64,000 nt of DNA from Mesostigma viride (Eukaryota; Streptophyta; Mesostigmatophyceae; Mesostigmatales; Mesostigmataceae), in the NCBI GenBank assembly GCA_009746045.1, contig RPFO01000156.1, positions 1,350,653-1,414,652 on the forward strand. Reading direction: 5' to 3'. Position 1 is the first letter of the stretch. Every line of letters begins with the position of its first letter. Below, one piece after another: positions 172-50,794 of this stretch. The position numbers were made by a program, and so were the translations under genes. The notes below the pieces were generated by a model, which saw only the letters and a program-made list of their open reading frames with translations, made no database searches and had not been told where the DNA came from.

Positions 172-333
172 TCAGTGAAGATGCCTACTAAAAAAGATTG
201 TTCGGTAACTGCATATGATAAGTGAAGTAGGTACAGGCATCCTGAAAGTTTGTCTGCCTGCACACGAAGCATCCAAAATAACCGCAGGCATGTTTAGCTT
301 GAGACGACTCAATAGTAAACCCATTGTATATCT
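172..333 (-). CDS. DEG exon 16, C terminus (provisional end)
   Basis: Acceptor CTGTAG. Encodes [17 protein letters not shown], fitting the FLRFDL....VVLDA block, then FRMPVPTS and a further 16 residues to TGA. The tail after VPTS is not family-like, so a further splice to an exon outside the window cannot be excluded. Confidence 0.68.
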   Translation of the reverse strand, partial: RYTMGLLLSRLKLNMPAVILDASCAGRQTFRMPVPTSLIICSYRTIFFSRHLH

Positions 334-3300
334 CTACAGACAACTCGTTCTAAGACTCAGCAGCAACATTTTGCAAGCCAACACCCACCACACACCTCTG
401 TAGAAGCCCATATCACACATTAGCAGATGGCTGCTTACAGGCCTGGCTGGGACGACGTGATACCCATCATCCTTATTTGGGGTGTGTGGGGTGTGGGGGT
501 TGGGGAACCCTGACAGAAAGGGACACCCAAGCAAGGGTTGAAGCTTGGCAGCAGCGGTCATACTTAAACTGCATCAGACATAACCGTGGTCACAGTGGCT
601 GAGATAATCCTAGCCTGGCGCATCCAAGCTAGACATCTTTCAAAACACCTTTGTCATATGCGCAAGCTTTGCCAGCCACCAATCGAGCTGCCGCAAGGGA
701 GTAACAAATAACACCACAATACATAGTAGAGTAGATGGCTATGCAGGCAACAGTAGTAAGTCAGGCAAGTGGGGTGCACATTTCAAAAAACCATGCAATA
801 GTATTTACGCGTGATGTGCACATGGCAGGGTTTGATATTATTGGATGGGAAGTTGCATGGGCTGCTAGAATGGACAAATGTGAGCCTGAATCAAAATAGA
901 ATACGTCAGTGTCTACTCTAATCAAGAACAATTGTGCTTTTGGTTGTCTACGGGCATTGTTTGCTTTCAGAGCTGGTGTAGATAACTGATATGTAATAGA
1001 TTTCTGACGTGCGGGTATGCACGCCGCTGTTGGTAGACAGGATCACGGACAACATTTTTGGGGAAAAATGTGAGTGACATGTGGGAGGATTTGTGCATAC
1101 GAACAAATTGAGGATATGGGAGAGCCGTGAGCAATAAGCAGTACCTGGGATATCTCTCCAGCTGCCTTGTGCCTGTCCTCTCGCCTGCCTCCCTCGCCCC
1201 AGCACCATGAACTTCCCAGGCCCATATTTGCTCTCCGCAGGCCTATCGCCCCACTCTAGGTCAAACCGTCCTCTCGCTCACAACCAAGGTCGCCACTCAT
1301 CCCCGCTGCTGATCCTCGCCCCGGCAAGCGGAGCCAGCTATCTAACGCATTATGTGCACCACGGTTGATAGGGCCAAAGTGAGGCATGTTGAAGCATGAA
1401 TCCAAGGTGTTTTTGTAGGGCGTTTATGGAGAGTGAGGTGTTCCTTCACTTAACCCATTTCCATCCAATAGGGCGTTTCCGGCTCCTTCACTTACCTTAT
1501 CCACGATTGCCGCGAGGTCTCGCAGGTTTTCAAACGACTGCCCGCTGCAGGAGAGAACTTTGGTGGGCATCACCTGCGCGTCGTCACGCAGTGTGCCAGC
1601 ACGCACATCGGCACGTCAGAATGTCATCCCATCAGCGAATTCGCATGGCATCGGCAGGGAAAGCGGGCCAGCAGGCGCAGCCAATTGATTATCCACCCGA
1701 GACTCGTACGCTTGCTCCTGCATGTGCGTGCCTTCAGCCCTTCACTGCCTCGTACATTGCACGGGCCAGGGTGCCTAACGCTCATATGCTATGTCTTAAT
1801 TAGGTAATACCCGACCTGTAGGTGTGTTAGCTAACATTTCGGGGGCAGTGCCCTATGCGACAGGTTCAACCTTCCCGGAAAGAATGTTAAGCATTGGCGC
1901 ATGTTTAAATTTTGTTTTGATTTAGTGCAACCAGTGCTGTTGCAGAATGTTTCGCCCAACAAAGTGCGAAATGTAGCCTAAAGCCGCAGCGTCCTTAGAT
2001 CCCACTGCTGGCAATAATAATTAATAAGAATTACTAATAATCAATAATAAGTGTCTTATGAAAGACACGGGGTTGTGGGTGTACCCTGGGTGTGCCCCTA
2101 AAACCCCTCAGGCTCCGGGAGAGGCCTTAATATTCTCTCAAACCGGCAGCTCTCAAAGAGTTCCAAGCCTATCTGGGGCCACTGGACAATGGAAGTGGCA
2201 GCCTTATCGCATCCGCTATGCTTTTGCTACTTCCTGTTGTATTGCACCCGCAGTTGGGCCTGCACCATTTGATGCAAAGAAAGTCCTCTGTGGCCTGCCC
2301 ACATGCGGCAGTGAGAGAAGCTAGGACGCCCTCCCTCCTCGATGTGTATAAGGGTTGAAAGTTCCTTCATTGTTACCCATGTGCCACAGTCTACGTGCTG
2401 TTAATTAATTAATTAATTAATGAGAGACGCTCCCCCGAATATTCCTAAATGCTTTGTAACGTACACACCTCCTAGTGTCCTAGAGTCCACAACGGACTAA
2501 TCTTATGGCCAGAATCATGTCTGGACAGGCAGCTGATACCACGGATGCACATCGATGGCATCGTTATAGATACTTCTATCACAATAAGCCTTACCTTGTA
2601 ACCGAAGTTGATCTCAGCGGATAGTACTTGAAATAGAATGACAACCTGGTGCATCGCAGTCATATTGGAGTTGGGAGAGGGGGATCGAGGTGGGGAAGCG
2701 GGAAAAGGGGGGATTTAGAGGCAGACATCAGCCAGCAAGAAACATCAGCCTAAATCAAGTTCAGCTCACTTGCACTCATACTGCTGAATTAAATAGAAGA
2801 AGGTTTAATATGAAAGAAAATAGCACCAAAAGGCGCTATAGGCAGGCCATGCCCCCCCCATGAAAACGTCAAAACACTGCCATTGCACCACTGTTGACGA
2901 TATTGTATGGGCAGTACCACCAGTCAATCATTGTATTTGGCGCACAATCCGATCGCGCACAATTAAGCAGGGAGCGGGATTCTGGTTTCGGGAAGCCATG
3001 CTTATGGGTGCTGCCATACTTATGTTTACCACCAGTCCCTCCCTTTTAACTTCTACGGTACCAGACACAAAAGGGGATGCAGTCGCAGCAACATGCAATC
3101 AATGACCCAACCCCTTTAGGATCGGACCTGTTTAACACACACAAGGGCAGACCAGGTACGCTGCATTCTGAGTCAAACATGCACTTCTAGAACGAGAACA
3201 CAGAAGGGTGCATGGAAAACAACCAGAGAAAACCAACAGGCAAGGCATGCCTGTATTTGTCCCACTGTATTCGTGGGACTGTCATGAAACTTCAAAGTCC

Positions 3301-6300
3301 ATTCAGAACTAGCAGCTTGGATACAGCGGTATAGACAGGAGGGGAAGTCGGGAAGTTATCCAGATGAGCTAGCTTAGAGGCATGGCGCTATTTGCCCACC
3401 TTAGTAGTAGTAAAGGTTCTAGCTCAGGTGGACAGTGCTTCCCAATAAACAGCACACGTCAATCAACGCAACAGTAAAAGTTCACGACGAGGTCAAAGTT
3501 AAAATCTCGCTGGCAGCTTGTTCAAATATGCTTTGAAAAGTAGTTGTATAAGAATATTATACATTATACACGCTGTTGAATTCTATATTTAACATCTGAG
3601 AGATATGGTCTGTTGTCCATGTGCGCAAAGCATGCACTAGATCATAGCCCTGCAAGGCTGCCTTGGCAGAGAAACTCAAAGCTGTCCCGGGCCAGCTTTA
3701 CAGTCCTAACGAAAATACGTTAGGCCGCACCAAGGCTGCAGCAGAAGCCGTCTTCCATCCCATGGACGCTGCCACCCCACAAAAAGTTTACACCTCAACT
3801 AGATGATTACTATACAGCAGCAGTATACTACATTAATACATCTAGTAGGATTATGATAGTACTAGTAGAATAGTAGAATAGTATATACTAGTAGAATGGT
3901 ATATACAAGTAGATTAGTATATACTAGTAGAATAGTAGTATTATGCTTTTAGTATTGATACAGTTGAAGATATATTGAACACTCCACGTACCTGTTCCTC
4001 TGGTTTGGTGCGGTACTCTGGGATCTGTGGGGCACGGATAAGGGCCGCAGATAGCATAAATAACGTCAACAATTCGATGAGTTAGACATATCTAGACATC
4101 ACCTGCGGTGCACTCTGTGACTTCCCAACGAACGTGAGCTATTTACTTACCTGCGACACACTCTCTGACTTCCCAACATTGAATGCGAGCTATATAGTCA
4201 CCAGGGCATCATCATGACGCGCCGGCGCCGCATGCTGGTTGCTGGCGCTGTGGATGCATAACTTTCGTGCAATCCTGGATAGATTCAACCCGCCCCTCCC
4301 ACCCCCATTCCCCACCCCCAACGCCACTCCCAGCCGGGCCTAACCCCCCACCCCGCCCCACCCCCATTTTCATGATGGCAGACCTAGATGTATTTCGGCA
4401 GCCCCAGACGTACTATCTAGACCACATTCCCCATATTCAAGGTGTATCCGACATTACAAGTTGCCAATAGGCCGTACAACAGACAACCGTACTCCAGTGC
4501 AAGACCTACGTAGAGAGTTGAATAGGGGGACGTCTGCAGCCTCGAAACACAGGTAACCAACCTGAAATCCCCAAGGGCCATTTCAAGGTGCTGACAGTGG
4601 AGAGTATGCATGATAAGAACAGATAGCATTTTCAAACCTCCACAGGGCAACCACTGTTAAAAGGGAACACCAGCCCTACCAGGGACTCACCAGAGACAAC
4701 AGCGGCACCGGCGCCACTTTTCGCCTGGGAGGTCCGGAAATTTGTTTCTCAGCATGGCGGTACAGAGAGGCAAAACGAGCAAACTAAGATCGATGAATGA
4801 GTGGTAGGTTTATTTACACATGGTTGGAAGTAGTGACCAGACCTGCTGGTCACACGAGACGTGAGACAGCACCAGACTAAAGTAGTAGTAGTATACATGC
4901 AACATTCAGCTGGTGAAGTGGCTCACATGCGTGCAAGTGTTTTATACCCACCGCATGCGCACACACCGGCCGTGGCTTTGCAACTGCAATACTTGCCCGC
5001 CAGCACCGTCCGCACCAACGACAGCAACAGCGGCTTCTCTGGGCAAACACAATTGCACGACTACACAGTGACAAAATCCCTCTAGGAACCATTCATGGGT
5101 AGAAACTACAAACTGTATGTATCTACCAAACTGTATCCACCAAACTGTATCTACCAAACTGTATCTACCAACTGGTGCATACGCACCAAATGTGTTCTTG
5201 GAACCCTTTGGAGCCTGCACCAGCGGTGTTATTGCCCCGTGATGCAGCTGCACTGATTGCCCCTGAAGGTAGCCGCCACATCACCCCCTCGTTTGCCATT
5301 ACTGTAGAAGACAGCTCGGACGAGGACTATTAATTAATTAATTAATTAATTAGGAACATAACTCCGTTGGGAGTATCTGTAGCACATAGCCCTTGAGAAG
5401 GGGCAGATGGCCTATAATACATTCTAGGCTACTTCCTGCAAGGGTGGGAATGTAAACAACACTTGCTCTAGGTGCACTAGGGCACCTGCACCACCCAGAG
5501 TCTCGGGCACGAGGACTATATCCCTACATAATCTAGGGTTGGGGCATGATACGCATGACCTTTTTCTTTTAAGTTTAGTGTAATGTTAGTAGATTAGCGT
5601 AGTACTCCGTAACATGCCCCCCCGCACGGCACGCAAGTACTTACTGACTTATGCACCAGCTGCGGCAGCGTAAAAGTTTTGCACGCATCGGCTGTGGCCT
5701 TAATCTTGAAAGTCAGCGTTCAAGATATGCGACCGCAGGCACTAGCCTTGGCCGATTATAGATCAGCCCCTCGGAGCATGCACCAGCTGTGGCCAACCAG
5801 GTGCCACCAACAACTGTGCCTTACCAACAGCATGAGAACCCACCCACCCACTAGCGGTGCATTGCCTTGAAAAATATTCTTATTAAAACCTCGCGCTGCA
5901 CGCACCAGCTGTGTCCGAACGCATGCTCGATGAACGGCACGCTCAGTGGCACAAATACTAGGCCCCCAAAGACAAAGTAGCTTGGCACGCAGTCCACGCT
6001 GTGCATGATGGGCACCAGGGGGCGCCGGGGGGCCAGGGGGTACGATAGCTCCACCTCCTGCCAAGGGACGCGAAGTCACACGTAGTGTCAGTAGAAAAAA
6101 CGGCAGCAGAAGAAATGGATGCTCAAGAAGCGAGGGCACAAAGAAGCGGAGGCACAAAAATAGACAGGAGGGAGGCATGAGTCACGATGGGATTATAAGT
6201 TGAGGCATGAAGGAGGAGGGATCAAAGGTAAGAAGGGGAAGAGGCGAGGTTGGTGACTAGGGAATCCGGACACACAAGTCTGTGGCATGGTGAGCATAAT

Positions 6301-9300
6301 TATGCCGACGCTAAATGAATGAATAATAGTATAAAAGATATAGATAATGATAATAATAATATAATAATAATAATGATAATAATAATACTAGGAATAATAG
6401 GCCCTGGAAGGGATCAGAGGCCAGAGGGACACTCTGCGTGGCGCGCATGCATGCACCAAGGTCGATGGTCATGAGCTGTCTAGTAGCACAGATAATGGGC
6501 ACGCACCTGGACTAGGCATTGGCACTAGGCATGCGCCCTAGATATGAAATTACGCTGCAGATGGGCACAGCATGGCAAGGCTGGTGGTCATGAGTATCAA
6601 GCCACTGTATTCACGTACTAGTATACATGCACAAGGTATCGCTGATAAGAACCTTACCACAAGGCTGGCATGCGGCGTTGCACAGCTTCCTTTCCCATGG
6701 TGTTATTCCTGGCCCTTGTCCACTTTCCCACGGCATGCCTATAGGATGACTAAAAAGACGTGTTACGCCCAACCAGATGGCCACTAAATACTACTATATA
6801 GATGTGTAATGTAAGCCCCCATAGGAAGCCATTTGTGAGCCGTGACCCCTCCACAGGAGACAAGGGAAGAGTAACTTTTGCTCTCGCCCGTGACAATGAA
6901 CTCTTGCTGGTCCTTCCGGCAGGAACGAGTCAAAAAAAGATTTAGCCGAGTCACTTGGTAATTAGCTTATCATATCAATCCCCCGAGGTCACCACAGTCT
7001 ACCCAAGAGATCGATCCATCTTCCCAAGTGGTGGTATCTATGGTTACCTGGCCGTCCCTCCACACGACCACTCGAATGACATCCCCGATAAAGTGCGACC
7101 GGATGACGTGGCTGAACTCCACGCGCTCCTCATTCCTGCGGTTCGGGGACGATGTCGGTGTGTGTGTGTGTGTGGGGGGGGGGTGACAGTGGTGTGGGTT
7201 GGGTTGGGTTGGGTTGGGTTGGTTTGGTTTGGGTTGGTTTGGGTTGGGTTGGGTTGGGTTGGGTTGGGTTGGGTTGGGTTGGGTTGGGTTGGGTTGGGTT
7301 GGGTTGGGTTGGGTTGGGTTGGGTTGGGTTGGGTTGGGTTGGGTTGGGTCGGGAGTTATGGGGTTGTGGCAGTGGCGGGTGGATTGGTGAAAGAGTTGCG
7401 CACGCAGGTCATGGCGTGAGCCGGGCAGATGCAGCCACGTAATTTGCCGCAAGACAAACCTTTCAGGGTCCATGGTGTACACAACATGGCAAAAAGTAGG
7501 ATCGGTAAATTAAATTGGGTGGCAAGAGATAGTATGAGTTAATGTGGAAAAAGAGGAGAAGATGTAGAGCAGGGCAGGGCAGATCAGGCTATTTGAGTGG
7601 CAGGGAGGTGCCATGTGTGAGCTGTATGATAGTAATCACTCTAGCACGCCGAAAACGTTTGCACACAAGATGCTACAAAGTCTGGTTGCCAGCAGTAGAC
7701 CGGGAAAATTTCCAGCTTTATCCTAAATGCGAAGCAGATATAGTTCCCTTCTAACGGTCAGATTTGCTCAAGGCCACAAGGGTCAGATAAGAGGTACATG
7801 AAGGCAGCGTGTGCAAAGCAGCCCACTCTACCCCTGGGGTCAGCTTACTTAAAGAGTATAGCACGCTGCCGCTTTTTGAGCGGAGGCACACTACAATGTT
7901 GCGCGCTCCTACCTTGGCCGGAGGCACTCGAGCACTGGAATTCGATGGCGTGGGTACATAGCACATGCTCCTGATGCGTGAGCGAAGCTCGATGAACTCG
8001 GTGAGCAGAGGCATCCACCCCCACCACAGGATATTTCAAGGTAGCACCCTGAAGCCCACCACAGCATACTCCTAGTCACTTTCATATCTCACTTTCATAT
8101 TACGTAGCCACCACGGTGTGAGCAGAGTTAGCATAAACCGGCGCGATACCTGGTCACCAACGGGAATCATTAGCGACCACCCGATGGATGCGCTCCCGAT
8201 AAACTTTACTTGGTCGCCACCGGTAGTGGAAGCATCTTGCAGCAGTGCGCGCTATACCGGTAAACTATACTTGGACGCCATCGGTAGCGGAGGCACGCAC
8301 CAAAAGTCGATCGCACTCACCGAAGCTCGATGGTGCCATCATCCGCAACCGCGGTGCCGTCGACCGACATGATCACATCCCGTTCCTTCAGGTGGGCCGC
8401 ACAGGGTGCCAGGGGGTCGGTCTTGTACACCAGGACGCCGCTTTGCTGCGAGGACACCTGCATGGGTGGGTGTCCAGTATCCATACGGCATTTATACCGC
8501 ATACACTTGACCATTCATATGTCCGGTTGGCAGTCATCTATTGACTTTCTTCTTACCACCTTCCCCCCCCCCCCCCCCCCTTCCTCGTCAGCCCACCCAG
8601 CTGGTCACCACAGCAGGTAAGATTGATGAATGGCATGCGCAGCGTGTCTCCTCGACTTTCCTTAGCACTTTGAGGTATAAATAAACAATTAAGCAAAACA
8701 AGGACGCAAATTCCTCGTCACTCCCACCGGAGCCGTAAGCGCAAAGAGCTACCATGGCCATTATCTGTGGTCAGCAATTACTTTGTGGTCCCAGTGTACC
8801 CATTAGGTATAGCGACTATGACACGTGAGAGTGACTGCCGTGCGACGTGTGCAACAACAGCAGAGCCATTTATTGGCCCACAACTAAAGCAACACAGGAG
8901 CCACCCCTTTGTCACCCTGACCAACTTAACCCACCAGCAAAGATGAACTCTTGCTTGTTGCGGTGAAGTACATGCATGCACGGTTTGTGTCGTTGCACCC
9001 CGACCCACCCCTCTTATATCATGTAGTGCAAGTCGTGCCCTCTTATGTCTTGTGTCTACCTACACCCTAAACCCTAAACCCACCCCTCTTATATCATGTA
9101 GTGCAAGTCGTGCCCTCTTATGTCTTGTGTCTACCTAAACCCTAAACCCTAAACCCTAAACCCTATACCCTAAACCCACCCTCTTATATCATGTAGTGCA
9201 AGTTGTGCCCTCTTATGTCTTGTGTCTACCTAAACCCTAAACCCTAAACCCACCCCTCTTATATCATGTAGTCGTGCCCTCTTATGTCTTGTGTCTACCT

Positions 9301-11973
9301 AAACCCTAAACCCTAAACCCTAAACCCTAAACCCTAAACCCTAAACCCTAAACCCTAAACCCTAAACCCTAAACCCTAAACCCTAAACCCTAAACCCTAA
9401 ACCCTAAACCCTAAACCCTAAACCCTAAACCCTAAACCCTAAACCCTAAACCCTAAACCCTAAACCCTAAACCCTAAACCCTAAACCCTAAACCCTAAAC
9501 CCTAAACCCTAAACCCTAAACCCTAAACCCTAAACCCTAAACCCTAAACCCTAAACCCTAAGCCCTAAACCCTAAGCCCTAAACCCTAAACCCTATACCC
9601 ACCCCTCTTATATCATGTAGTGCAAGTCGTGCCCTCTTATGTCTTGTGTCTACCTACCGGCTCTCGTTTAGAACATCTGCCTGCAACTTGCTCCTCTTGC
9701 ATTTTTCCACGCAGCCTGTCTAGAAAGACCTGCCCGCAAGCTCTCCCACCTAGTCTTACCATTAATAAAACAACTAGCCTGCAGGCTCTCCCTCAGGTAT
9801 CCTTGAAAACAAGACCCTTGAAACAGACCCTTGAAACCAACTTGACTGAAGGCTCTCCTTCAGGTACGGTTTCTGCATGCCTTGGTTACAAAGCTTACCT
9901 GCAACATTTCCTTTTCACATATTAATTCTACAACACGTACCTGCAAGCTCTCCCTCTTACACTTCAACACTAGTATAGTAGTAAGACAACTTGCCTGCAG
10001 GCTCTCCCTCAGGTACGGGTTCTCCATGTCCTCCCACCGGAACCCCAGGCTGCACACGCCGCGGAACTGAGAGGTGTGGAGGCAGGTAAAAGCAAAGTAG
10101 TCACTTGTCAGGGTGCACACGCCATGGCTTGTGTATGGACACGCCGCTGACAGAGCTGGGACGTGTGGAGGCAGGCAAAAGCAACATAGTCTCGTGTCAG
10201 TGCGCATGCCATGGCTCGTCCGCACGTGCCATTGAACGGGCAGGTGCATTGGGGTGGCAGGAGAAGGCGTCTCGTGTGACCGGATCCGAGGCGTGAAGCC
10301 GTGCGGACCCAAATCCGTGTTCTTGCACCGCGGGATCTTGAACACACATTTGTGCCCTCACGGCTGCACACGTCTGATCTGGTCCAGCAAGTGTGAAACC
10401 CCAGTATTGATGTACTACTGGTAGTCTGTTGATAAGTCACCATTTACGTTAGAAACGCCGCGTATGTGTCAGATACCCGGTAGGGTGGGCACTTGTGTGC
10501 ACGGATACACAGGGGGGGGTGAAATGCACACGCACGGCAAAGTGTTGCAGGATACAAAATCCACTATACACAACAAGCCAGCCCACCAAAACAACAGGCA
10601 GCAGCAGTAACCACTTCTCATGCATGTTGCAGCGTGGGAATGGGAGAGACATAAAATGGGCATTAGGCATACGCCTTTAGGCAAGCTCGCCAGTAATCAG
10701 GAGCTCCCTCAATAAACTAGCGATCGGTGCATGGTTCGGTGGGGCATGACAGCCAAGTACTGCCCATAGCGCTCGTTACCAGCGTTTGGTGGGCCATGCC
10801 AAGTACCTGCCCATATCGCTCGTTCTCGGCCAAAAAGTGCTCGATGATCCTGAGAGTGGCCGGCAAAGGGTCCAACGTCCCCAGCCGTCCCCATTGCACG
10901 ATTCCATGCCGACCAACAACCGACGAATTCCGCAGGGAAAGAAACAACAACATCCGTCCCCAATTGATTAGGCATGAGATAAGGTGTATGAGATGCAGCG
11001 TAATGGATGGATGTGGATGCATCGTGACGGATGGATGTGGATGCAGCGTGACGGATGGATGTGGATGCAGCGTGACGGATGGATGTGGATGCATCGTGAC
11101 GGATGGATGTGGATGCAGCGCAACTGATGGAGGTGGATGCAGCATAACTGATGGATTTGGTTACCCGGACATCTCCTTAGGCAAGCGATAGACATGCACG
11201 TAAGGATGGATGATCATAGAAGGGGACCCAAGCATGGAGGTAGGCATCAGAGAGGCACATAATAAGGATGGATGAGCTTGGAAGAATCCGGAGAAGGGCT
11301 TACGGGCAGTAAGATGGACACATGCTTTGGGGGGGCAATCATCTAGTCTATGAGGCTCGCAGCCTGCTCAGTGCTGCTGCCGGGGCAGTAGGCAAGAAAC
11401 AGAGGACAACAAGGTAAGGGTGTTTGGCCTATCATTGGCTGAGCAGCAGGACAGGTGAACCCACATTATTTCCATGGAAGCGAGCGAGCTGTGCTGTTGC
11501 AAATTAGAGGCAACTCCCTGCTTCACGGATGCTAAAGGCCAACCCTGCTTGCCACCGAGGAGCCAAGGACGTTACTTGCTGGCATTAATGGGCAAAGCCT
11601 GCGTGGCATCCAAGGGAAACTCCTCGCTAATATAACTACTCATCTTAAAAAAAAATCTTCATAACAAATGTTTTTTCAGTTCAGATTGCCACTGGAAGGC
11701 ATACGTCACTGATTGAAATAAAAAGTGGGAAATGCCGTGGTAGGGCACTGTGTGTGAACTGGGGGTGGCAGTGGTGGGTTCAGTGGCCGTTGGTTGGTTG
11801 GTTGGTTGGTTGGTTGGTTGGTTGGTTGGTTGGTTGGTTGGTTGGTTGGTTGGTTGGTTGGTTGGTTGAACCTACCTGCATGGGTGTGTGTGTACGTGCG
11901 GGCAGGCAGGTGGGCGGGCGGGCGGGCGGGCGGGCGGGCGGGCGGGCGGGCGGGCGGGCGGGCGGGCGGGCGG

Positions 11974-12005
<32 letters not shown>

Positions 12006-12029
12006 CGGGCGGGCGGGCGGGCGGGCGGG

Positions 12030-12073
<44 letters not shown>

Positions 12074-12222
12074 CCGGCAGGCCGGCGGGCGGGCGGGCGG
12101 GCGGGCGGGCGGGCGGGCGGGCGGGCGGGCGGGCGGGCGGCGGGCGGCGGGCGGGCGGGCGGGCGGGCGGGCGGCGGGCGGGCGGGCGGGCGGGCGGGCG
12201 GGCGGGCGGGCGGGCGGGCGGG

Positions 12223-12310
<88 letters not shown>

Positions 12311-23812: not shown

Positions 23813-24723
23813 GTACACTGTAGCATTTTATCGTCAGGACGCACTGTGACCCTTCTCTCATTCCCTTCTCGCCGTATTACTGTGAGTTAGCTGGCTGCTC
23901 CTAGGTTCCCTACATTCGGCAAGTAACTTAATGAGGTACTAGAAACCATGTTTCTCCCGCCCCCCCCCCCAGCACTCCTATCCATGTGCGCTGTATAGAT
24001 ATCTAACATCGGTAATTCTCAAATTCCGTCTGTTGTCCCCCGCATTTTGCTTCCAGCTCTACCTGTTACAATATCCGCTTCGTCCCCCGTGGAGGCCGTA
24101 CAATGACGGGCAATACAGCGAGGTAACGTTGTTTTCCCTGTCGATTCAAATGGTATTTCCAAGTGTGCGCCGCGCCTTGTTTTTCTTGTTTCAACCAAGT
24201 CAAGCCGCTGTAGCGTAAATGTGCAGTCACCAAACATTAATACGTGTTTGGTGATAACATCATACTTCCTGTGCGGTTGCCGGACCTGTCTTCAGGCTCA
24301 TCCCAACCTGTGCATTCATAGAACATAAGTAGGTGTGTGCTGTCTATGTCGCCGCCCCTCCTGTGCGGTCGCCCGACCTGTCTGCTCCAGGTGCGCGTCA
24401 AGCCCAACCAGGGGCGCGTGGAGGTGGACTGCACGCTGGACCAGACCAACGAGAACTATGACCAGGAGGCGAGCGAGCACCTGCGCATCAAGAAATGCGT
24501 GAGTGGTGTCATGCGATCGCCTGTTCATCAAGAAATGCGTGAGCGGTGTCATGCAATCACATGCGCGCTTCAAGAACTGTGCGCGTGGTGTCATTCGATC
24601 ACCTGCGCATCTTGACATGCGCGAGTGGCCGCACGCAAGCAGGTTTGCATCCAGTGTGTGTGTGGCCTTGAGACGCTTATATCATGATGGCTTGGGCATG
24701 CAGGATGGGGGATGGAGGAGGGG

Positions 24724-24758
<35 letters not shown>

Positions 24759-30700: not shown

Positions 30701-32772
30701 TGGTTGCAAGAACTTAAAACGAATTGCCTCAAACCTGTTTGTGATAACTTTGATTCCTGCTATGGTCTGCATGCGCGTGCACCCATATCGGCGTCCGTGG
30801 CACCCTGGATGGCTCCCATGCAGCTATCTGGATGCTTTGCCATTGGAAGAAAGGATTCACGCGGTGCTGGTTGAGGTAAGGAACCTCGTTGTCAAATGTT
30901 CGCAAGGTGTGCTTTCTCAGGATAATTAAATGTTGGAAAGAACTGATTGTTAATTGTGTGGCGAACCGACAAATGCGCGGTCGTGCCAATGTTGCAGCGT
31001 CCCTTGATTTCCACAGTGTGAGTTTCATGTTAGGGAAATGTGTATGGGATTTTTGCCTTTCTGTAACTCCTGGGTTGCCTTTTGGGGGTTGAACAAACGG
31101 GGTCCCTTCTCCAAGAAAAATAAGCATCATCTGGCTGTGTTTCAGTATGGGGCTATGGAGGTGGAGCCAGTGGAGCACTCAGCGGTTGCCAGCAGAAGTG
31201 CTTGTTAGCCTCGGTGGACTCGGGCTACACTCCTCGACAGTGACCCGATTTTTTATCGGCGAGACCCTGTGAAAAACGTTTGCGATTCGCTCATACACGT
31301 GTAGGGGTTGGACCATCTTTCCCGCCTCCTGGCGCCGTTGCTAACGTCCAAGTTTTTTTCTCCCAAAGCCCCCTAATTGTCGATTCTACTGTCAACTCTC
31401 AAGTGACTTCCTTGTGTGGTTGAAAAAGGGAAAAGCTGAACCTTGTGAGAGTGCCATTCTCCTGCCATCGGGCCCTGCGTACCCACAGGGTGAGATCCAC
31501 ATCCGGCACTACCTGCGCATCTTCCGCGTCGCGCGCGGGGAGTACTCGGACCGTGAGATACTGGCCATCCTTGAGAAGAAGGCGCAGCTCATCGAGGGCT
31601 GCTGGGTGCGTGTTTTGGGGGGAACGGAGAGGTTTTTAAGGGGAAGGGGGGGAAGGGTGCAAGAGCTTCTTCAGAGGGGAATTCGGGCCATGCATGAGAG
31701 GGGACTTTGGGGGCACTGATTTCAAAGGGATATACTTAAGGTGGAGCCATGCTGTGCAGGGTCCCTTTAGGGCCACGCGTTCAAAGGGACCTTTGTTTGT
31801 TTGTTTGTTTGTTTGTTTGTTTGTTTGTTTGTTTGTTTGTTTGTTTGTTTGTTTGTTTGTTTGTTTGTTTGTTTGTTTGTTTGTTTGTTTGTTTGTTTGT
31901 TTGTTTGTTTGTTTGTTTGTTTGTTTGTTTGTTTGTTTGTTTGTTTGTTTGTTTGTTTGTTTGTTTGTTTGTTTGGTCGCTCGGTCAGTCGGTCGGTCGG
32001 TCGGTCGGTCGGTCGGTCGGTCGGTCGGTCGGTCGGTCGGTCGGTCGGTCGGTCGGTCGGTCGGTCGGTCGGTCGGTCGGTCGGTCGGTCGGTCGGTCGG
32101 TCGGTCGGTCGGTCGGTCGGTCGGTCGGTCGGTCGGTCGGTCGGTTGGTCGGTCGGTCGGTCGGTCGGTCGGTCGGTCGGTCGGTCGGTCGGTCGGTCGG
32201 TCGGTTGGTTGGTTGGTTTGGCTTGTTTGTTTGTTTTGTTAGTTTGTTTTATTTGTTTTGTTTGATTTGTTTGGTTGGTTGGGGTGGACTGGGCTGGGCT
32301 GGGCTGGGCTGGGCTGGGCTGGGCTGGGCTGGGCTGGGCTGGGCTGGGCTGGGCTGGGCTGGGCTGGGCTGGGCTGGGCTGGGCTGGGCTGGGCTGGGCT
32401 GGGCTGGGCTGGGCTGGGCTCGGCTCGGCTCGGCTCGGCTCGGCTCGGCTCGGCTCGGCTCGGCTCGGCTCGGCTCGGCTCGGCTCGGCTCGGCTCGGCT
32501 CGGCTCGGCTCGGCTCGGCTCGGCTCGGCTCGGCTCGGCTCGGCTCGGCTCGGCTCGGCTTTGTTTTGTTTTGTTTTGTTTTGTTTTGTTTTGTTTTGTT
32601 TTGTTTTGTTTTGTTTTGTTTTGTTTTGTTTTGTTTTGTTTTGTTTTGTTTTGTTTTGTTTTGTTTTGTTTTGTTTTGTTTTGTTTTGTTTTGTTTTGTT
32701 TTGTTTTGTTTTGTTTTGTTTTGTTTTGTTTTGTTTTGTTTTGTTTGTTTTGTTTTGTTTTGTTTTGTTTTG

Positions 32773-32819
<47 letters not shown>

Positions 32820-34326
32820 GGGGCACTTTGTTGTCCGGGCAGATATCTTAAAATTGGTACTCCATGATCCATCCTATTCAATACATCCATCCCATCTGAT
32901 ACGCTTTATAGTGTCTTCTGCGGAGGGCTGCCATGTTAGGCTTGCAGACGAGCGGATTTGGAAAGTGAGTGGAGGGATAGGGGAAGGGTGTTTGCTGGCA
33001 ATAATTGGCTTCCTGGCAGGGAGCCCGGGGGGATACAGGGGTCTCAACTCTGTATTCGTTGCTGCCATTGGACTTTTCGGTCTGCGCGAGCTTGGCTTTG
33101 GAATCAACGCCTGCTGGGAAGCATGCGTGTAGCACCTTCACTTACAGTGCTTGGCACTCTGCAGACAAAGCTGGTGGTAGAGGGCAGGCAGGACCCCAAA
33201 AGCTTTGATGATCCTCACAAAATATTCTGAACGTTTCAAGGTGGCCATGTCATTGTTTGAGGACAAACGCCTAGCTCTGCATTTGGGGATTTAAAATAAT
33301 AAGCTTGCTGCCTGCTGGGATACGTCACCTATCGACAGGGCTTGAAATCGTATGCGCTGGGCTTGCCATGTACCTGGAATGCTGCTTCCTTGTGGTGGAC
33401 GTTTCTTTTATTTAATTGACTAACACGATTGACCCACTCATTATGGATGATTGACCCACTTGCATACGCGTCTTGTATCTGGGGCATGGTGCACCAATGT
33501 CCAGGTCACCAAGAGCGAGCTATTTTTGGACGAGAAGGCGGCGGCGCTTCGCGACTACCTGCTGTCCCGGTTTGCGCTCAAGTACGGCAGAGCAATCTCA
33601 CCATCGATGCCTGACATACTGGCCACGGAAACGTGCACAACTAGGCAATATGAGGAGCTAGGCTATCTAGGGGTTCTTATTACTAGCTGTTCATCACACA
33701 TAACCGCGCTAGTGTTTTTTAAAGAAGTAATCATGCAAGAGCAATGACTGCTGTGGGGGGCTGTTCAGCTGTCCACAGAGCGTAGCTGACGATGGACTGT
33801 GTTATACGGAAGCCATGTAGAGTAGGACTGCTAGTCGTAGGAATCCTTAAACCCCTACACCCCAAGATGGCGTCATGTCTACACAAAGGGCTGGTACAAA
33901 GCAAAGCGGCATAATGCAGAGCAGAGTGGAGCAAAGAGCTACGTTCATGGAATGCAGCGGTTGGCACCACTGGCATTGCGGGCGTTGGAGCCACAACGCG
34001 TGGGACCAAGTCTTTGCGAGCACCAATGTGCCGTGTGTGGATGGCCAGGCGGCATTCCATTAAAAGCATGCAGACGGCATCACGCAGGTTCCAATAACGT
34101 GGACATGCCATATCAGATAGCGTCCGCAGGTTCCAATAACGTGGACATGCCATATCAGATAGCGTCCGCTTTGGTCACAAGCCTGGGTTTCACCTAGCCT
34201 TGATCTTGCTTGGCATAGTGTGTCGCTGTGGAGCCGGAGCCTGATCTTGTTCACTCTGCGCTGGATGGTTCCAGCTTGTGTCTGGGTCAGGCACTCACCA
34301 CACACACACACACACAACACACACAC

Positions 34327-34369
<43 letters not shown>

Positions 34370-34591
34370 GCACACGCACACGCACACGCACACGCACACG
34401 CACACACACACACAACACACACACACACACACACTACTATACTATAGTGACCACACACACACACACACACACTACTATACTATAGTGACCACACACACAC
34501 ACACTACTATACTATAGTGACCACACACACACACACACACTACTATACTATAGTGACCACACACACACACACACTACTATACTATAGTGAC

Positions 34592-34622
<31 letters not shown>

Positions 34623-37600
34623 CTATACTATAGTGACCACACACACACACACAGGCTTGGCAGATTGTATCACAAATCTCAAGAGGTTTACAAAATCTCA
34701 AGAAGGGCTTTTTCGTTTTGTGTTCCTGGCCTTGGCAGAGCCCGCCAAAGCTGCGGCCTAACCAGCTATTTGAAATCTGCCATGGGACTGCCACCGCCTG
34801 CCCTCCCCGCAGGCAGTGAAGGCGTCAGCGTTGCTGCATGCAAAGCCTGTCATTGTGACCTAGTTGAGAGTGTGGGTCATGCCTATTTATTGGTACCCAT
34901 GTAACTCAGTCACGTGCTTTGAATGGCCACTTCCTGGGCGATCATCTAATTTGTCAGCTGACATGAATCCGTTTCATTTCTTCGTTTCTTTCCTTCCCTT
35001 TCCCACGCCTCGGGGTGGCTTGCTGCAATCTACTGCTTGCAGCCGCATGCTGCACCTGTCCATGAAGGAGGAGCATCTGCCGCAGGTGCGCAGTCTGTAG
35101 CCCTGATCAACCGGCAGCAGCCTTTTTGTATGGATGGGGAGGGCATTTTTCTGTGGTCACTTCTGGGGATTTTTCTTCTTGCTCCTAAGGAGTGTCTGCA
35201 TTGCGAAGGCATAGTCTCAATAGTAGCCTGTATATTGCATGCCGCGGCCAGTCCAAGGGGCGGAAAGTTGTAATTTGATTCTTATTCTAATTTGATTATT
35301 TTAGGAGGGCAATTTGGTTAGGCAAGATGTCCTAATAAGAAACCAGCTTCATTCCCATGCCTTTTCCCATGCCGTTCTTTCAGTCACTGAGCTTATTAAC
35401 ATTATTGAGCTTCTGGCTTCTGTAGCTAGGCATGATGCATCCTTGGATACCAATGTCAAGAATAGTTTGTACGAATGCGGGCCAGCTATCTGTAGGGGTG
35501 CGTGTGGCCCTTTTTCCTGCTCTCTGCAGCTGTTTACCATCGTTGTGGGTGTTTAGGTTACAAGTGCTAGTATACCCATCCTTGAATTTCGGTATGGTGT
35601 GACGGTAATCTTAGGTTGAGTATCATTCGACGCAGGCGCATGATTCATCGTTTGTTTACTTCGTAAGTGGCTCATTCCACTGCATAGTGCATTTCCCAGG
35701 GACTTGGGGTATTCAAGGTGGTGTTGCATGAGCTTGCCAATTGATTACTTGCTAGCTAGTTTGCTAATTATTACTGCACTGTGCTTAGTCGCACCGTGTC
35801 ACCGTGTCCACTCACACCGCAATCAACCGCGTTGTGTTTAATCACATCTTGCTCCCCACCTGCAGGCAAAGGTGAAGGCGGCGCTGCAGGAGGTGGCCAT
35901 TTTGCGCAAGGGCGGCCAGTGGGAGTTCAAGATTGAGCGCGACGAGGACTTCATCAAGGTAGGGCTTGCCTCACCTGCGCAGCAAATCTCAACGATAAGT
36001 AGATGGAGCGCGACGAGGACTTCATCAATGTACGCCTAGCTTCACACCCTGAACATGAAACCCTACACAGCAAACATTAAATAGATGCAACACGATAAAA
36101 ACTCAATATCAAGGTAGGGCTATCCTAACATCCTAAACAAGCCCTACACCACAATACCTATGAATGTGGAGCACGATGAGGGCCTCTCCTCCCCGGTTAG
36201 GGCTGCCCTCAAACCCTTAACATATGGGTCATAGCAAAGGCTCCATGAAGGTAGGGGCGAGACTGGGACTGTAATGTGCTCATGTAAAGTTGAATAGCGC
36301 AGGACCGGTTTAGGGTGAAGTCTTTTTATCAAACTGAACAAGGCAGGGGTGGGCAGCAGAATGTAGAGGGCGCTCCTGCAGGTGCACGATGAGTAGGGTG
36401 CTCTCTGCAGGTGCGCACCCTGCAGGTTCTCTCTTGCTAGCATTACACGCACCCCTGCATACTCGTTTGTTCTCAGTGGGTGGCTTTTCTTCGGCAGGAT
36501 TGCGCCTTCCAAACATAGGGGAAATCCAACATATTTCTTTGAGAAATGTGTATGCTACTTGTGGCATAGTCCTAACCGAGGGGCATGGGTCATTCGGTGG
36601 GATATCCTGAACACCCCACCCAAACGCAGAAATTCCCCGACGTGGTCGAGCGGCAGCAGCAGCAATGGGCGGACGCAGAGCCCAGCATACGTGAGCGCAT
36701 GGCCACCCACTTCCCCTACAAGCCACACCCACACCACCACGGGCCCCACGCCAGCACTGCCGCCGCAACCGCTGCCACGGCTGGCCCCTCCTCTGCTTCT
36801 GGCGCCGCACCCGCGGCTGCCAGCTCGTCCGCGGCGGCGCCTGCGTCATCCTCAGGGGCCCCTGGTGCAGGGGCTGCGGCCAAGCAGGGACCGCCTGCCG
36901 CCAAACCGGCAGCGGGGGCAGAGTCAGAAGCCAAGGAAGGGGCTGCGGCCAAGGAAGGGGTGGATGTGGCCAGCAAGGCAGCAGCCAAGGGCAAGGGGGT
37001 GGCGATTGCGGCGGCGGTGGGTGGGGCGTCTGCCAGCAAGAGCACGGTGGTAGCAGCGCCGGTCGGCCCATCGCCGGTCGTGCCGCGGGCACCGGGGGCC
37101 CCCCTCACTGAGGATGAGACGGTGGTGGTGGTGGCGGCGCTGCGCAAAGTGTTTGAGAAGCAGAGCGTGTGCAGGTGGGTGTGCATCGGCGTGGCGGGCC
37201 ATGGGGTGTGCGCAGGTGGGCGGGCATGACTTTTGGGGACAAAAAGCATGGGCCTTAAACAGGTTGTACCCCATGACACTCCCAATGGAGCAATGTGGCT
37301 GAATGATTGTTTTTTGAAACATTTCGTCAGTTTCAATTGGAATTATAATTAGAAATATACTACTATATATGTTCGAGTATACTTAAAACATAAAATGCTT
37401 AATAATACACTACTACATATCAGTATAGATAGTAGTGTATATTACCTATGAATGAGGTTCTCGGGCCATTGGGGTGGGAACTGGTCACATGTGTGCCATG
37501 GTGTGTGCGTGGTTGCGAAGGCGCTTGGTGGAACGTTGGCCATGTGTGCTGTGGGGTGTGCGAGGTCCCATAGTCCGTGAAGCTGCCCCGTTCCCCATTG

Positions 37601-40020
37601 GCATGGTCATAATAAACAAGTAATGGTTATCCCCACGAACCGCAGCATGCTACGGCCTTGTGCCTCAACCCCCCCCCCCCCCCAGCGGCATGTGTTAGTG
37701 CACCGCTACATCCCTTCCTTTTGTGTGTTTACAGGCTGTATTTCCTCTAGCTCACATTCTTAGAACTTGAACATAGTAATATGGCCCCGGCCTGATGTAC
37801 CCTCCCTGGCTGCTTGCCCACCTGGCTGCTGGCATAATCGGTGCCCCGTGTTGGCTTTTTGTGGATAAACTTGTCCATCCTGATGTGCTCCCTGGCTGCT
37901 AGGCCTCCTGGCTCCAAGTTCTCTCCGCGCTCCTTGTTCGCATTTATGAAATTATGTACCTTGGCTGATTCTCCTGTCTGGTTACTTGCCCTCGCTCACT
38001 ACTAATGTGCATGGCTGCTGGCATCCCCGGCTATCTCGGGACTGCCACCCTCTCTGTATTCTGGCGTCTTTCCCCCCACACACACCATCCCGCCCCCACC
38101 CCACCCCACCCCACCCCACACCACACCCACCCACCACCAGCGTGAATGCTGTGCGCGGCCACCTGCGAAAGTTTGCGGCGGAGGGCAGCAAGGAGCATGC
38201 CGACATTCTGGCGGCTGCCGCCACGCTGGCAGGGGACAAGCTGGAGGCGCTTCTGGCCCAGGTGGCGTCCGAGATCAACCATGTGTACTTCCCCACCACA
38301 GTCGGCGATCCTGCAGTGGACCCTTTTCGGTATGTGTCTGTAAATAGCCCTTTTACTCTGTGCTTGTAACGTGCTTGACATCCTTAGGTCATGCGCTCCT
38401 ACACCAAATGCTTGCTTACCTAACTAGTACTACAATTATTAAGGGCTGGAAGTTACCTGTATAGTTATTGACAACATAGATCATAGTTGTATGATTGCAG
38501 CATAGTGGTGTGGTTGGGCTAAAGTAATAACATTGGCCAGGGTTTACTTTCATCGAAAATCAGGTTTAGGTGCGTAAATGTCCGTAGTGTGCTTGAAATT
38601 GTTGTGTCCATATACAGCTGCCGCGTCCTGTGGGAAGGGTACTGGCTGACCGTTACATCACCAGCTCCGTAATGTTTACCATAACCAAGTCCTTGCAATG
38701 CCATGAGGGCAAGCAGCACCATTTCAAAAAAAGCCTAATAGATGCTGCCTTGTTGCTTGGTAGCGTCCGCCTAAGCGGCATTCTATTATTATTATTTAAT
38801 TTATTTTATTAACCCACGTTTCCTTCCCTGCCGGTTTGTGCACATGCAGCAAGGTGGTTCTCGCGCTTCTTAAGATCAAGCCCACAGGCGTGCGCAAGAG
38901 CGACATCATGGAGGCAAGCAAGATCGCGTTGAAGATGGAGATCTCGGCCGCAATCTACAACAAGGTGGGTCACTGTAGTCACTATACTGCTGCCTGTGAT
39001 TCACTGTTTGCACCTAATGGAGCCCAGCAAGTCCGTGTAAACCAAGATGAGATCTTGGTCACAGTGTACAACAAGGTGGGTCACGATAGTCACTCAATTC
39101 TAACTAGTACCTTTGATTGCTAATTAGACATCATGGAGGCCAGCAAGAATGCGCTGAAGATGGACTTTGTGGCCGCCATGTACAGCAAGGTGGGCCAACT
39201 GGTCACTATAGCCATGATGCTGATAAGTTAGAATCGTCCCGGTCATTGTCTCGTGTTGTTTAGCTTTGACGTAGGGAGTTGCAGAAGGTTCTACCGGTTA
39301 CTGCCATGCATCATGCTGGCAGCTGGTAATGGTGTGTACCAGTCACGTCTTCCTTGTACCGGTCACTATTATGTCATCATGATTTTCATGGGGCTGTTGT
39401 CAGAAGATAAAAAGATTCGGAGCTGTGTGGATGCCAGTGTGGTCGGGCGATGGAGGGGCGGACGGGCTATATGGTTCACCCTGGTTCTGCCCATTGGTAA
39501 GGATCTCTCAATAAGGAGGATTCAGGCTCTTTTGCTATCGGCTGTGGGGATATTTGTGGCTTTTGCTGGTGCTCGCATGGTCAGACCTGTAACACTAAAT
39601 GGTTTTGAGTGTGCAGCTATCCCCACAGGTGCCTCGTTTGTAAACAACCATTCGCAGGCTAGTGCAAGGGTATGCTTGAAAAACATAACATAATACCTGG
39701 GACAGGTGATCTATATCTCCGCAACCTTTGACTTGCACTGGTGTTTTTCATTATTAGTAGCATAGTACAACCTTAACTATCAATGAAATATGGCTTTGCA
39801 ACAGCAATAACCTCCTACAGTCCGCCCTCACGTGATGTCAGACCTGTTGTGATGTTCATGTTGACGCAAGAGGCTGATTCTTTTTATGTGCGCTTTGGAT
39901 TGCTTTGCATGCACATCTACTGTGGTTCTTCAGGTGGTCAAGGATTTGTGTGTTGCCAAGAATGGCGCGTGGTTGTTGAAGTCCGGTGATGGGGACGCGG
40001 ATAAAGCGGCCAATCCCTGA
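23681..40020 (+). CDS. RPC5: RNA polymerase III subunit RPC5 (POLR3E/Rpc37 family, Sin_N)
   Basis: RPC5 pairs with RPC4 on the Pol III lobe and acts in initiation, termination and reinitiation on tRNA and 5S genes in the nucleus. Exons: 23681-23812, 24057-24122, 24391-24498, 26493-26558, 27388-27558, 27982-28068, 28795-28901, 29776-29853, 30824-30875, (31146-31187 tentative), 31489-31605, 33505-33581, 35043-35085, 35866-35958, 36630-37174, 38141-38329, 38850-38964, 39934-40020. Without the tentative exon they give 711 codons with the stop, close to animal RPC5 (about 708 aa). Diagnostic blocks are [52 protein letters not shown] joined to [13 protein letters not shown], and a terminal [17 protein letters not shown]. 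The long winged-helix C-terminal part is present, as in animals and plants and unlike yeast Rpc37. It runs divergently from the DEG gene. Confidence 0.93.
24057..24122 (+). CDS. RPC5: RPC5 exon 2
   Basis: 22 codons, [20 protein letters not shown] then SE. LYL.QYP.RP is the most conserved motif of the family. Acceptor TTCCAG, donor GTAACG. Confidence 0.95.
24391..24498 (+). CDS. RPC5: RPC5 exon 3
   Basis: 36 codons with [15 protein letters not shown] and NENYD, matching IKP.Q..VE.....D..N.NY. Donor GTGAGT. Both flanks carry echoes of its splice sites (see findings). Confidence 0.94.
24719..24783. repeat. Poly-G tract in RPC5 intron 3
   Basis: Runs of up to about 35 G, broken by single C, A or T. 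Likely G-quadruplex forming and prone to assembly error. Confidence 0.9.
25253..26212. repeat. Minisatellite of about 43 units of 22 nt in RPC5 intron 3
   Basis: Core AGCTTCACATGGCAACCACT with positional variants (ATGG/AAGG, AACCA/AATCG, TATAG/TAAAG). Units are co-linear and almost free of indels. Confidence 0.95.
26493..26558 (+). CDS. RPC5: RPC5 exon 4
   Basis: Encodes [20 protein letters not shown] followed by NQ, matching the T..SS......YA.G..R..E block. It joins in phase to [14 protein letters not shown] in exon 5. Acceptor GCACAG, donor GTGAGG. Confidence 0.87.
26832..27050. repeat. Minisatellite, unit about 38 nt
   Basis: Five to six units with core AGAGGTCCTTAGTGTATATT in RPC5 intron 4, nearly identical, so recently expanded. 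Confidence 0.92.
27388..27558 (+). CDS. RPC5: RPC5 exon 5
   Basis: 57 codons. [19 protein letters not shown] matches LHL.P.HGI.QLRPSF.YLD; an acidic stretch [14 protein letters not shown] follows. Acceptor CTGCTAG, donor GTGAGG. Confidence 0.95.
27982..28068 (+). CDS. RPC5: RPC5 exon 6
   Basis: 29 codons, [20 protein letters not shown] then YLKQQDEAE. It matches VRF.R.E.E..R.RR.QSY..L....AEE. Acceptor CTGCAG, preceded by three near-copies of the acceptor region. Confidence 0.93.
28795..28901 (+). CDS. RPC5: RPC5 exon 7
   Basis: [20 protein letters not shown] then [16 protein letters not shown]. It matches PWV.L..Y...S..S...R. Donor GTAGTG, phase 2. The exon end is duplicated about 50 nt downstream. 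Confidence 0.92.
29083..29240. repeat. (CTCCCCGA)n tandem repeat
   Basis: About 18 octamer units ending in GACTCCCTGA variants, in RPC5 intron 7. Confidence 0.9.
29776..29853 (+). CDS. RPC5: RPC5 exon 8
   Basis: Encodes [12 protein letters not shown] (family: YL..L.P) and a short variable region ending GGLSK. Acceptor TCCACAG, donor GTAGGC; phases fit both neighbours. Confidence 0.85.
30824..30875 (+). CDS. RPC5: RPC5 exon 9
   Basis: Encodes [17 protein letters not shown], matching LR.LPL.DQI...L of animal RPC5. Acceptor ATGCAG, donor GTAAGG. Confidence 0.88.
31146..31187 (+). CDS. RPC5: RPC5 exon 10 (tentative, 3' end unknown)
   Basis: After acceptor TTTCAG the open frame reads [14 protein letters not shown], which could cover the segment between LPLEERI and exon 11. 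No good in-phase donor is seen before the stop at 31206. Confidence 0.35.
31489..31605 (+). CDS. RPC5: RPC5 exon 11
   Basis: 39 codons with [20 protein letters not shown] then QLIEGCW, aligned with the ..LA..VQG.WVVKS winged-helix block. Acceptor CCACAG, donor GTGCGT. A 1 kb microsatellite chain begins about 190 bp downstream. Confidence 0.85.
31794..32818. repeat. Chain of five microsatellites in RPC5 intron 11
   Basis: (GTTT)n 31795-31974, (GGTC)n 31978-32205, (GGGCT)n 32288-32420, (CGGCT)n 32420-32560, (TTTTG)n 32560-32817, with short hybrid zones between. Long open frames here are artefacts. Confidence 0.97.
33505..33581 (+). CDS. RPC5: RPC5 exon 12
   Basis: [20 protein letters not shown] then SRFAL. 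Acceptor GTCCAG. The donor is taken as AA/GTACGG because it gives the phase that exon 13 needs. Confidence 0.8.
34298..34652. repeat. (CA)n with six interspersed 18-nt units
   Basis: CA runs alternate with ACTACTATACTATAGTGACC at about 34432, 34471, 34504, 34541, 34574 and 34620. A compound repeat in RPC5 intron 12. Confidence 0.93.
35043..35085 (+). CDS. RPC5: RPC5 exon 13
   Basis: Encodes [14 protein letters not shown]. Acceptor CTTGCAG, donor GTGCGC, phases fit. It bridges to [13 protein letters not shown] in exon 14. Confidence 0.8.
35866..35958 (+). CDS. RPC5: RPC5 exon 14
   Basis: 31 codons ending [16 protein letters not shown], matching GWEF.LP.D.EFIK. Donor GTAGGG. Three or four degraded copies of its 3' end follow in the intron. 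Confidence 0.95.
36630..37174 (+). CDS. RPC5: RPC5 exon 15 with Ala/Ser/Pro-rich insert
   Basis: The largest exon (181 codons). [20 protein letters not shown] matches K.PDVV.RQ...W. A low-complexity Ala/Pro/Ser/Gly/Lys insert (about 36750-37095) follows, then [20 protein letters not shown] opens the next winged helix. Confidence 0.93.
38141..38329 (+). CDS. RPC5: RPC5 exon 16
   Basis: [20 protein letters not shown] through [12 protein letters not shown] and VDPFR. Acceptor CACCAG after a C-rich tract, donor GTATGT. Confidence 0.9.
38850..38964 (+). CDS. RPC5: RPC5 exon 17
   Basis: 38 codons, [20 protein letters not shown] then [18 protein letters not shown]. Donor GTGGGT. A second, slightly diverged copy of its 3' two-thirds lies at 39127-39189. 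Confidence 0.92.
39127..39189 (+). pseudogene. Duplicate of RPC5 exon 17, possible alternative exon
   Basis: The frame reads [20 protein letters not shown] then K, against [20 protein letters not shown] then K in exon 17, and is followed by the same donor GTGGG. TTGCTAATTAG just before it could serve as an acceptor. It is either an intronic duplication or a mutually exclusive exon. Confidence 0.6.
39934..40020 (+). CDS. RPC5: RPC5 exon 18, C terminus
   Basis: [20 protein letters not shown] then eight residues and TGA. The V.K.........W.LKSGD pattern is the usual end of plant and animal RPC5. Confidence 0.92.
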   Translation: MVKDLCVAKNGAWLLKSGDGDADKAANP

Positions 40021-42835: not shown

Positions 42836-42856
42836 TTGGTAATCGGAGGTTTGACC
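42836..42856 (+). other. Putative primer binding site
   Basis: TTGGTAATCGGAGG directly follows the 5' LTR. The TGG start fits pairing with a tRNA CCA end; the tRNA was not identified. Confidence 0.5.
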
Positions 42857-50789: not shown

Positions 50790-50794
50790 TCTGG

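Follow-up and report, generated by a model that had tools for sequence, protein, structure and literature searches.

Donor splice sites in the genome of Mesostigma viride are often followed, within their own introns, by degraded copies of the exon end together with its donor. These copies, referred to as echoes here, were noticed in a stretch of 64,000 nucleotides (nt) of assembly GCA_009746045.1 (contig RPFO01000156.1, positions 1,350,653 to 1,414,652 of the forward strand; the window), in the introns of two genes, RPC5 and a DEG protease gene. The window was tested first, and then chaperonin (PF00118) and kinesin (PF00225) genes elsewhere in the same 439.9 Mb assembly. The pooled set comprised 81 introns (29 from the window, 26 from chaperonin genes and 26 from kinesin genes), of which 31 (38%) had a donor echo. 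Given that the chaperonin and kinesin genes were taken by family, regardless of echoes, donor echoes can be called general in this genome, within the limits of a sample of 81 introns. We consider it probable, at roughly 0.6, that short tandem duplications repeatedly arise across exon-intron junctions and that the donor copies accumulate as decoys. A single genome was used throughout, and introns were modelled from sequence.

Frequency of Donor Echoes

The echo test took a junction segment of 45 nt from the exon end and 15 nt from the intron start and searched for it by alignment in the following 500 nt of that intron, with short-period repeats masked; a score of at least 45 was called an echo. 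In the window, 11 of 30 donors reached this score (11/29 in the pooled set), which confirmed the copies of exon ends and donors that the original prediction had described in the downstream introns of DEG and RPC5. The own intron scored higher than all 29 other introns for 14 of the 30 donors, where about 1 was expected, and the reverse-complement control for the window was 0/30. Echoes were also found at 9 of 26 chaperonin donors and 11 of 26 kinesin donors. When exon ends were aligned to introns of other loci, 0.8% scored at least 45, and the reverse-complement null was 0 in every gene set. Moreover, each of the 19 window alignments examined crossed the junction, with GT kept in most, and the echo therefore covers the donor position. 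With 31 of 81 donors from three unrelated gene sets affected, the view that the process is repeated and general held. Three later-modelled 5' DEG donors, which are outside the pooled 81, were negative with scores of 17, 26, and 24 (31/84 if they are included). Donor strength, GC, CpG and G content, phase and acceptor strength did not separate donors with echoes from those without (all p > 0.17).

The two window genes were modelled as follows.

23681 to 40020, plus strand: RPC5 gene, 17 exons, in-frame model with a PF04801 match, hosts six named echo sites
1496 to 15035, minus strand: DEG protease gene, 14 modelled exons, in-frame model with Deg9/Deg2 relatives and domains

The RPC5 model has an intact frame of 710 amino acids, and its protein matches Pfam RPC5 with an E-value of 5.1e-102; no second copy of the RPC5 region was found in the assembly with a query of 2.5 kb. 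The 14 DEG exons, read from 15035 to 1496, are joined in one frame. The best solved relatives of the DEG protein are Protease Do-like 2/9 (Deg9/Deg2-like; E-values of 5e-88 and 2e-87), and its domains are Trypsin_2, PDZ_2, and PDZ_3. Additional 5' DEG exons at about 20.6–18.9 kb are outside the 14-exon model. Introns elsewhere were modelled between neighbouring exon matches via GT/AG signals, frame and domain continuity, and were retained at a model score above 4 (26/29 for chaperonin and 26/28 for kinesin). Of the chaperonin matches, 53 of 58 were used; those omitted were the intronless match in C2011, three matches in C1641, which is a second contig of one gene, and one isolated match in C1106. 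The kinesin matches used (60 of 129) were selected by falling in retrieved stretches.

Donors Compared with Acceptors and Intron Interiors

With a mirrored anchor, 1 of the 30 window acceptors was positive. Among the 81 introns, anchors of 45 + 15 nt gave copies at 31 donors and 6 acceptors, and anchors of 30 + 30 nt at 32 donors and 13 acceptors. Local duplications were also found at 148 of 839 interior anchors of the same introns, and about 17% of intron bases were within such pairs. The median spacings by anchor were near each other (interior, 95 nt; donor, 88 nt). When matched by intron, 30 of 77 donors had echoes vs. 11.2 ± 2.6 for random interior anchors, with a maximum of 20 in 5000 draws. 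In the 81 introns, the comparison of junctions with interior positions by self-alignment, which the original prediction had proposed genome-wide, gave an excess at donors.

Because anchors overweight long arrays, the alignments were grouped into independent families. Families crossing the junction were found at 26 of 81 donors and 5 of 81 acceptors, in addition to 56 interior families. Under a uniform process, 4.7 families would be expected on each side; the expectation rises to 7.5 when it is multiplied by 1.6 to allow for the coding source being fixed, a factor taken from a simulation giving 1.5–1.65. The excess of donor families over these expectations was significant (P = 1.2e-7). At a stricter threshold there were 23 donor, 4 acceptor and 45 interior families, with 3.9 or 6.3 expected. 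Since acceptor families are at background level, the phenomenon belongs to donors. The acceptor copies that had been reported at RPC5 exons 3 and 6 are present (scores of 59 and 68), but acceptor copying is not general.

The similarity of the copies was also compared, as a measure of age. Copies at least 90% identical were found at 10 of 81 donors, 74 of 839 interior anchors and, with the 45/15 anchor, 0 of 81 acceptors, and older copies at 21, 70 and 6 of them, respectively. Counting strict ungapped events, 10 nearly identical ones crossed donors vs. 1.3–2.0 expected. The two counts thus disagree on the youngest class, and more weight was given to events. An early reading based on anchor counts, in which acceptor copies were purged and donor copies untargeted, was dropped as the main account in view of the event counts.

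Echo Sites in the Window

The sites below follow the exon numbering of our models. Arrays were detected with Tandem Repeats Finder (TRF) where indicated.

24473 to 24628, plus strand: tandem array of 40-nt units that spans the donor of RPC5 exon 3 (exon end 24498), about 3.8 copies (TRF); score 90; echoes at +40, +82 and +122
27595 to 27668, plus strand: echo of RPC5 exon 5 end and donor (exon end 27558), 52/74 identical; score 78
28922 to 28963, plus strand: echo of RPC5 exon 7 end and donor (exon end 28901), 32/43 identical; score 65
36001 to 36060, plus strand: echo 1 of RPC5 exon 13 end and donor (exon end 35958), 47/60 identical; score 96
36108 to 36129, plus strand: echo 2 of the RPC5 exon 13 donor, 19/22 identical
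37208 to 37227, plus strand: weak echo of the RPC5 exon 14 donor (exon end 37174), 17/20 identical; borderline score 42
39012 to 39118, plus strand: echo 1 of RPC5 exon 16 end and donor (exon end 38964), 78/108 identical
39127 to 39210, plus strand: echo 2 of RPC5 exon 16 end and donor, 70/86 identical over a longer source
13062 to 13096, minus strand: echo of DEG exon 3 (exon end 13146), 25/35 identical; score 45
12549 to 12574, minus strand: echo 1 of DEG exon 4 end and donor (exon end 12619), 24/26 identical
12489 to 12512, minus strand: echo 2 of DEG exon 4, 20/24 identical
10718 to 10777, minus strand: echo of DEG exon 5 end and donor (exon end 10807), 48/62 identical
9743 to 9956, minus strand: three echoes of DEG exon 6 end and GC donor (exon end 9995), three alignments
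5680 to 5797, minus strand: two echoes of DEG exon 9 end and donor (exon end 5906), 25/32 and 17/20 identical
4101 to 4129, minus strand: echo of DEG exon 11 end and donor (exon end 4151), 25/29 identical; score 63
24269 to 24309, plus strand: acceptor-side copy upstream of RPC5 exon 3, score 59 vs. the acceptor at 24390; coordinates read by eye
27838 to 27975, plus strand: 46-nt tandem array of three copies, its end immediately upstream of the acceptor of RPC5 exon 6 (TRF); score 68
10136 to 10184, minus strand: acceptor-side copy upstream of DEG exon 6 (exon start 10066), score 87; coordinates read by eye

The original prediction listed 11 donors, whose exon numbers seem shifted: its RPC5 exons 14, 15, and 17 are exons 13, 14, and 16 of the model, and its DEG exons 7, 8, 9, 10, and 12 are probably exons 4, 5, 6, 7, and 9. 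Nine of the 11 scored at least 45, but RPC5 exon 14 (42) and DEG exon 7 (36), in model numbering, fell below. DEG exons 3 and 11 were absent from that list.

The echoes of DEG exon 6 were at +54, +150, +216, and +261, with identities of 0.81–0.94, the one at about +261 being at the far edge. This exon appears to use a GC donor, CAG|GCAAGT (window position 9995); one of its echoes keeps GC and another has GT. Echo 2 of RPC5 exon 16 (39127–39189), inspected by eye, starts with an AG, stays open for 21 codons and has a good donor, and it could mimic or be an alternative exon.

Nature and Decay of the Copies

The spacing of the best echo (n = 31) ranged from 37 to 122 nt in 25 introns and was longer in 6, with a median of 88 nt. 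Identities of the best echoes ranged from 0.71 to 1.0, and four were exact. Copies adjoined their source, as originally described, and differed from intron to intron. Arrays of decoy donors are indeed built: 18 of the 36 donors having any echo with a score of at least 42 had at least two. The proposed decay with distance stood as a tendency only: in 14 of the 18 multi-copy donors, the nearest copy exceeded the farthest in similarity. At RPC5 exon 16, echo 2 was less similar (0.77) than echo 1 (0.83) with a 60-nt anchor. Some arrays were regular, such as +88/+171/+254 and +70/+140. The period was near-constant at, for example, RPC5 exon 3, L021, L035, and L045, and irregular at others. Most echoes were too decayed for TRF, which detected 6 of the 31 sites. 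In the case of L016 (5109), the donor modelled is probably a later copy in its array rather than the first.

The copies have the appearance of tandem-duplication relics that decay unconstrained. The GT was retained in 27 of the 31 best echoes, close to the 78% found for interior duplicates; the best-kept echo position was the G of GT (0.97). The used donor scored higher than its echo in 18 of the 31 and tied with it in 6. If used, 26 of the 31 echoes would lead to a frameshift or stop. Because GT retention is near neutral and most echoes would disrupt the frame, the echoes are probably passive decoys behind a donor still in use. In-frame alternative donors were rejected as an explanation, given these disruptions and a spacing that was a multiple of 3 in only 8 of the 31 (remainder 1 in 14 and remainder 2 in 9). 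The left edges of the duplicated units clustered at −40 to −10 above the simulation (medians of −29 vs. −41, p = 0.015), which is too weak to build on. Finally, the suggestion that the process lengthens introns was not borne out, as the median lengths of introns with and without echoes were 822 and 761.5 nt (p = 0.78).

Comparison of Related Contigs

One chaperonin gene is found on contigs C1641 and C887, which differ by about 2% over aligned stretches. A 43-nt intronic tandem unit had three copies in C1641 and two in C887, and the contigs also differed by an 18-nt tandem-like indel. No copy-number difference at a donor was seen in the one allelic-looking pair compared. A kinesin donor echo was present in both C2 and C622, which were identical over the 260 bases compared and are hence weak independent evidence. 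In BLAST matches of L023 and L025, diverged copies of one gene region on C887 and C1641, respectively, C1641 had about 3.1 kb extra.

Origin of the Donor Echoes

Short tandem duplications, with a spacing mostly of 40–120 nt, would arise repeatedly across exon-intron junctions. The duplicated stretch would consist of the exon end, the donor and the intron start, so that the new copy falls within the intron. Protein continuity suggests that the upstream donor is the spliced one. If this donor remains functional, the mRNA would be unchanged and the copy would be free to decay, and repeated rounds would yield short arrays of decoy donors. Copying might occur via slippage or microhomology-type tandem duplication, and the donor excess might reflect more frequent duplication at exon ends or donors, combined with tolerance there. 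In a stronger version, functional 5' splice sites would act as mutational hotspots at which short tandem duplications arise in this lineage, perhaps by way of an event coupled to transcription or to U1. Introns would then lengthen from the 5' side as exon end and donor are copied again and again, and the spliceosome would tolerate rows of near-identical donors because it always takes the first. This version is tentative, and we would sooner doubt it than accept it; the hotspot is unproven, even with the higher weight given to event counts.

Several observations weigh against repeated duplication across donors as the source of the echoes. The near-identical copies counted by anchor (10/81 vs. 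74/839) give no clear donor excess, and in simulation a 1.5-fold excess arose from source constraint by itself. The median family period was 44 nt in the interior vs. 70 nt at donors. The sole intron-placed copy-number change, that of the 43-nt unit, was about 700 nt from the donor. In the spacer test, which took 19 of the 31 echo donors, the exon and donor part was 0.83 identical, but the intron part was only 0.57 identical (shuffled, 0.49) and had no detectable similarity in 12 of the 19. The exact copy at L045 (3506) also has an unrelated spacer. Thus, some of the copies may have arisen otherwise than by simple tandem duplication. Neutral tandem duplication, simulated with the exon held fixed and with indels as frequent as between two contigs, predicted an intron-part identity of 0.66. 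In favour of tandem duplication, 15 of the 17 pairs simulated, out of the 19, were not below the 5% bound of this simulation.

Several other explanations share part of this evidence. Duplications might fall everywhere without targeting, those at donors being seen longer as their exon half stays unmutated and a duplication does no harm there. The many local duplications in intron interiors are consistent with this, as are the similar frequencies of near-identical copies at donors and interior anchors and the skew of donor copies toward older ages relative to interior anchors at least 300 nt away (p = 0.004). The excess, however, was 2.1–2.2-fold by anchor, 2.7-fold when matched by intron and about 3.5-fold by corrected events, all above the simulated 1.5-fold, and we regard the absence of targeting as quite unlikely. 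Slightly more room is left for coding exons that duplicate more than introns everywhere, with only donor-crossing copies surviving and exonic or acceptor-crossing ones purged, although this too seems unlikely. Within the 80-nt exon flanks of the 81 introns, no fully exonic family was found, and near-identical copies were absent from acceptors vs. 8.9% of interior anchors with the 45/15 anchor (p = 0.001; 0 or 1/81 with other anchors). Purging is, however, not needed to account for acceptor families that match the interior expectation (5 vs. 4.7–7.5). Several acceptor copies retain an intact AG, and the stop-codon junction of RPC5, the only one tested, had no echo (score 32).

Selection might also retain echo donors, for instance as additional U1 binding sites, which may protect long introns from premature polyadenylation, or as regulatory decoys. 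The GT kept in most echoes, with its G as the best-kept position, the better preservation of the exon and donor part than of the spacer, and the unexplained share of older donor copies could all be read in this way. Nonetheless, GT retention is close to the interior background, the spacing holds no frame, and the scores of used donors and echoes are as neutral decay would give, which makes retention by selection improbable. Repeats are well known to cause assembly errors, and an assembly artefact, or a dispersed element such as an introner or transposon inserted near donors, might also be considered. Each echo matches the exon beside it, matches to other introns being very rare, and a shared element or introner was rejected on the cross-intron null. 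Most identities are too low for assembly duplication, though the four exact echoes are not, and the kinesin echo on two contigs adds a little. We give an artefact or inserted element next to no credence.

Relation to Known Duplications

According to Hellsten, tandem duplication of AGGT-containing sequence reportedly gives rise to a new intron whose acceptor is a copy. Similar to that model, sequence bearing a splice site is tandemly duplicated within a gene here. Different from it, the intron pre-exists and the copy is found downstream of the donor. The original prediction's link with AGGT intron gain was rejected, since none of the 81 introns had matching donor and acceptor regions at a score of at least 42. 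The exon end before the donor and the intron end before the acceptor had a mean score of 20.1 in the same intron and 20.5 in other introns. Internal gene duplications, on which Gao and Lynch are said to have reported in 2009, are also partial within-gene duplications that may take in intron sequence. They reportedly involve larger units with exons, whereas the units here are mostly of 40–120 nt and the exon-derived part of the copy is intronic. Intronic minisatellites have head-to-tail tandem units, a near-constant period and copy-number polymorphism. The echoes resemble them in their tandem units and in the regular arrays at some donors, and a copy-number difference between two contigs was seen for a unit in an intron interior. 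The echoes share no common unit, however, each array deriving from the exon end next to it, and decay has left most of them undetected by TRF. Tandem duplication is known to give rise to new introns. In this genome the junctions on which it acts exist already, and the excess is confined to donors.

In potato RdRp, a tandem duplication across an intron-exon boundary on the acceptor side made a new intron (PMC4974935). Similar to the echoes, the duplicated piece spans an exon boundary; however, that case concerns one gene, the acceptor side and a new intron, while the echoes concern many genes and the donor side, and no new intron was seen. A comparative Chlamydomonas genome study discusses long introns, and the parts of it consulted contain nothing similar to donor echoes (PMC8226300). 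PubMed Central (PMC) searches, outside which most subscription papers lie, surfaced no paper on donor-side junction copies.

With about 38% of the 81 sampled donors in one genome affected, the echoes provide natural experiments on how the spliceosome chooses among near-identical donors tens of bases apart. They are also a possible route of intron growth at the 5' end. The duplications are datable, as coding constraint preserves one of the two copies in each pair. In addition, gene predictors should be used with caution, as echoes resemble exon ends with good donors.

Other Repeats in the Window

A DEG intron (9003–9600) contains a CCTAAAC telomere-type array of about 43 units (9298–9600) beside a 69–95 bp unit interleaved with the CCTAAAC motif. 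Together with the Deg9-like protease and flagellar motor genes, such telomere-type repeats suggest a green alga. Very long intronic arrays of tetra- and pentanucleotides are found at 31792–32820, 15258–15803, and 11898–12318, and in part these change their unit abruptly, from TTTG to GGTC, then to GGCT-type and TTTTG. Finally, two direct repeats of about 740 bp (42101–42839 and 50060–50794), which are 98.2% identical and about 7.2 kb apart, are perhaps the long terminal repeats of a recent retrotransposon.

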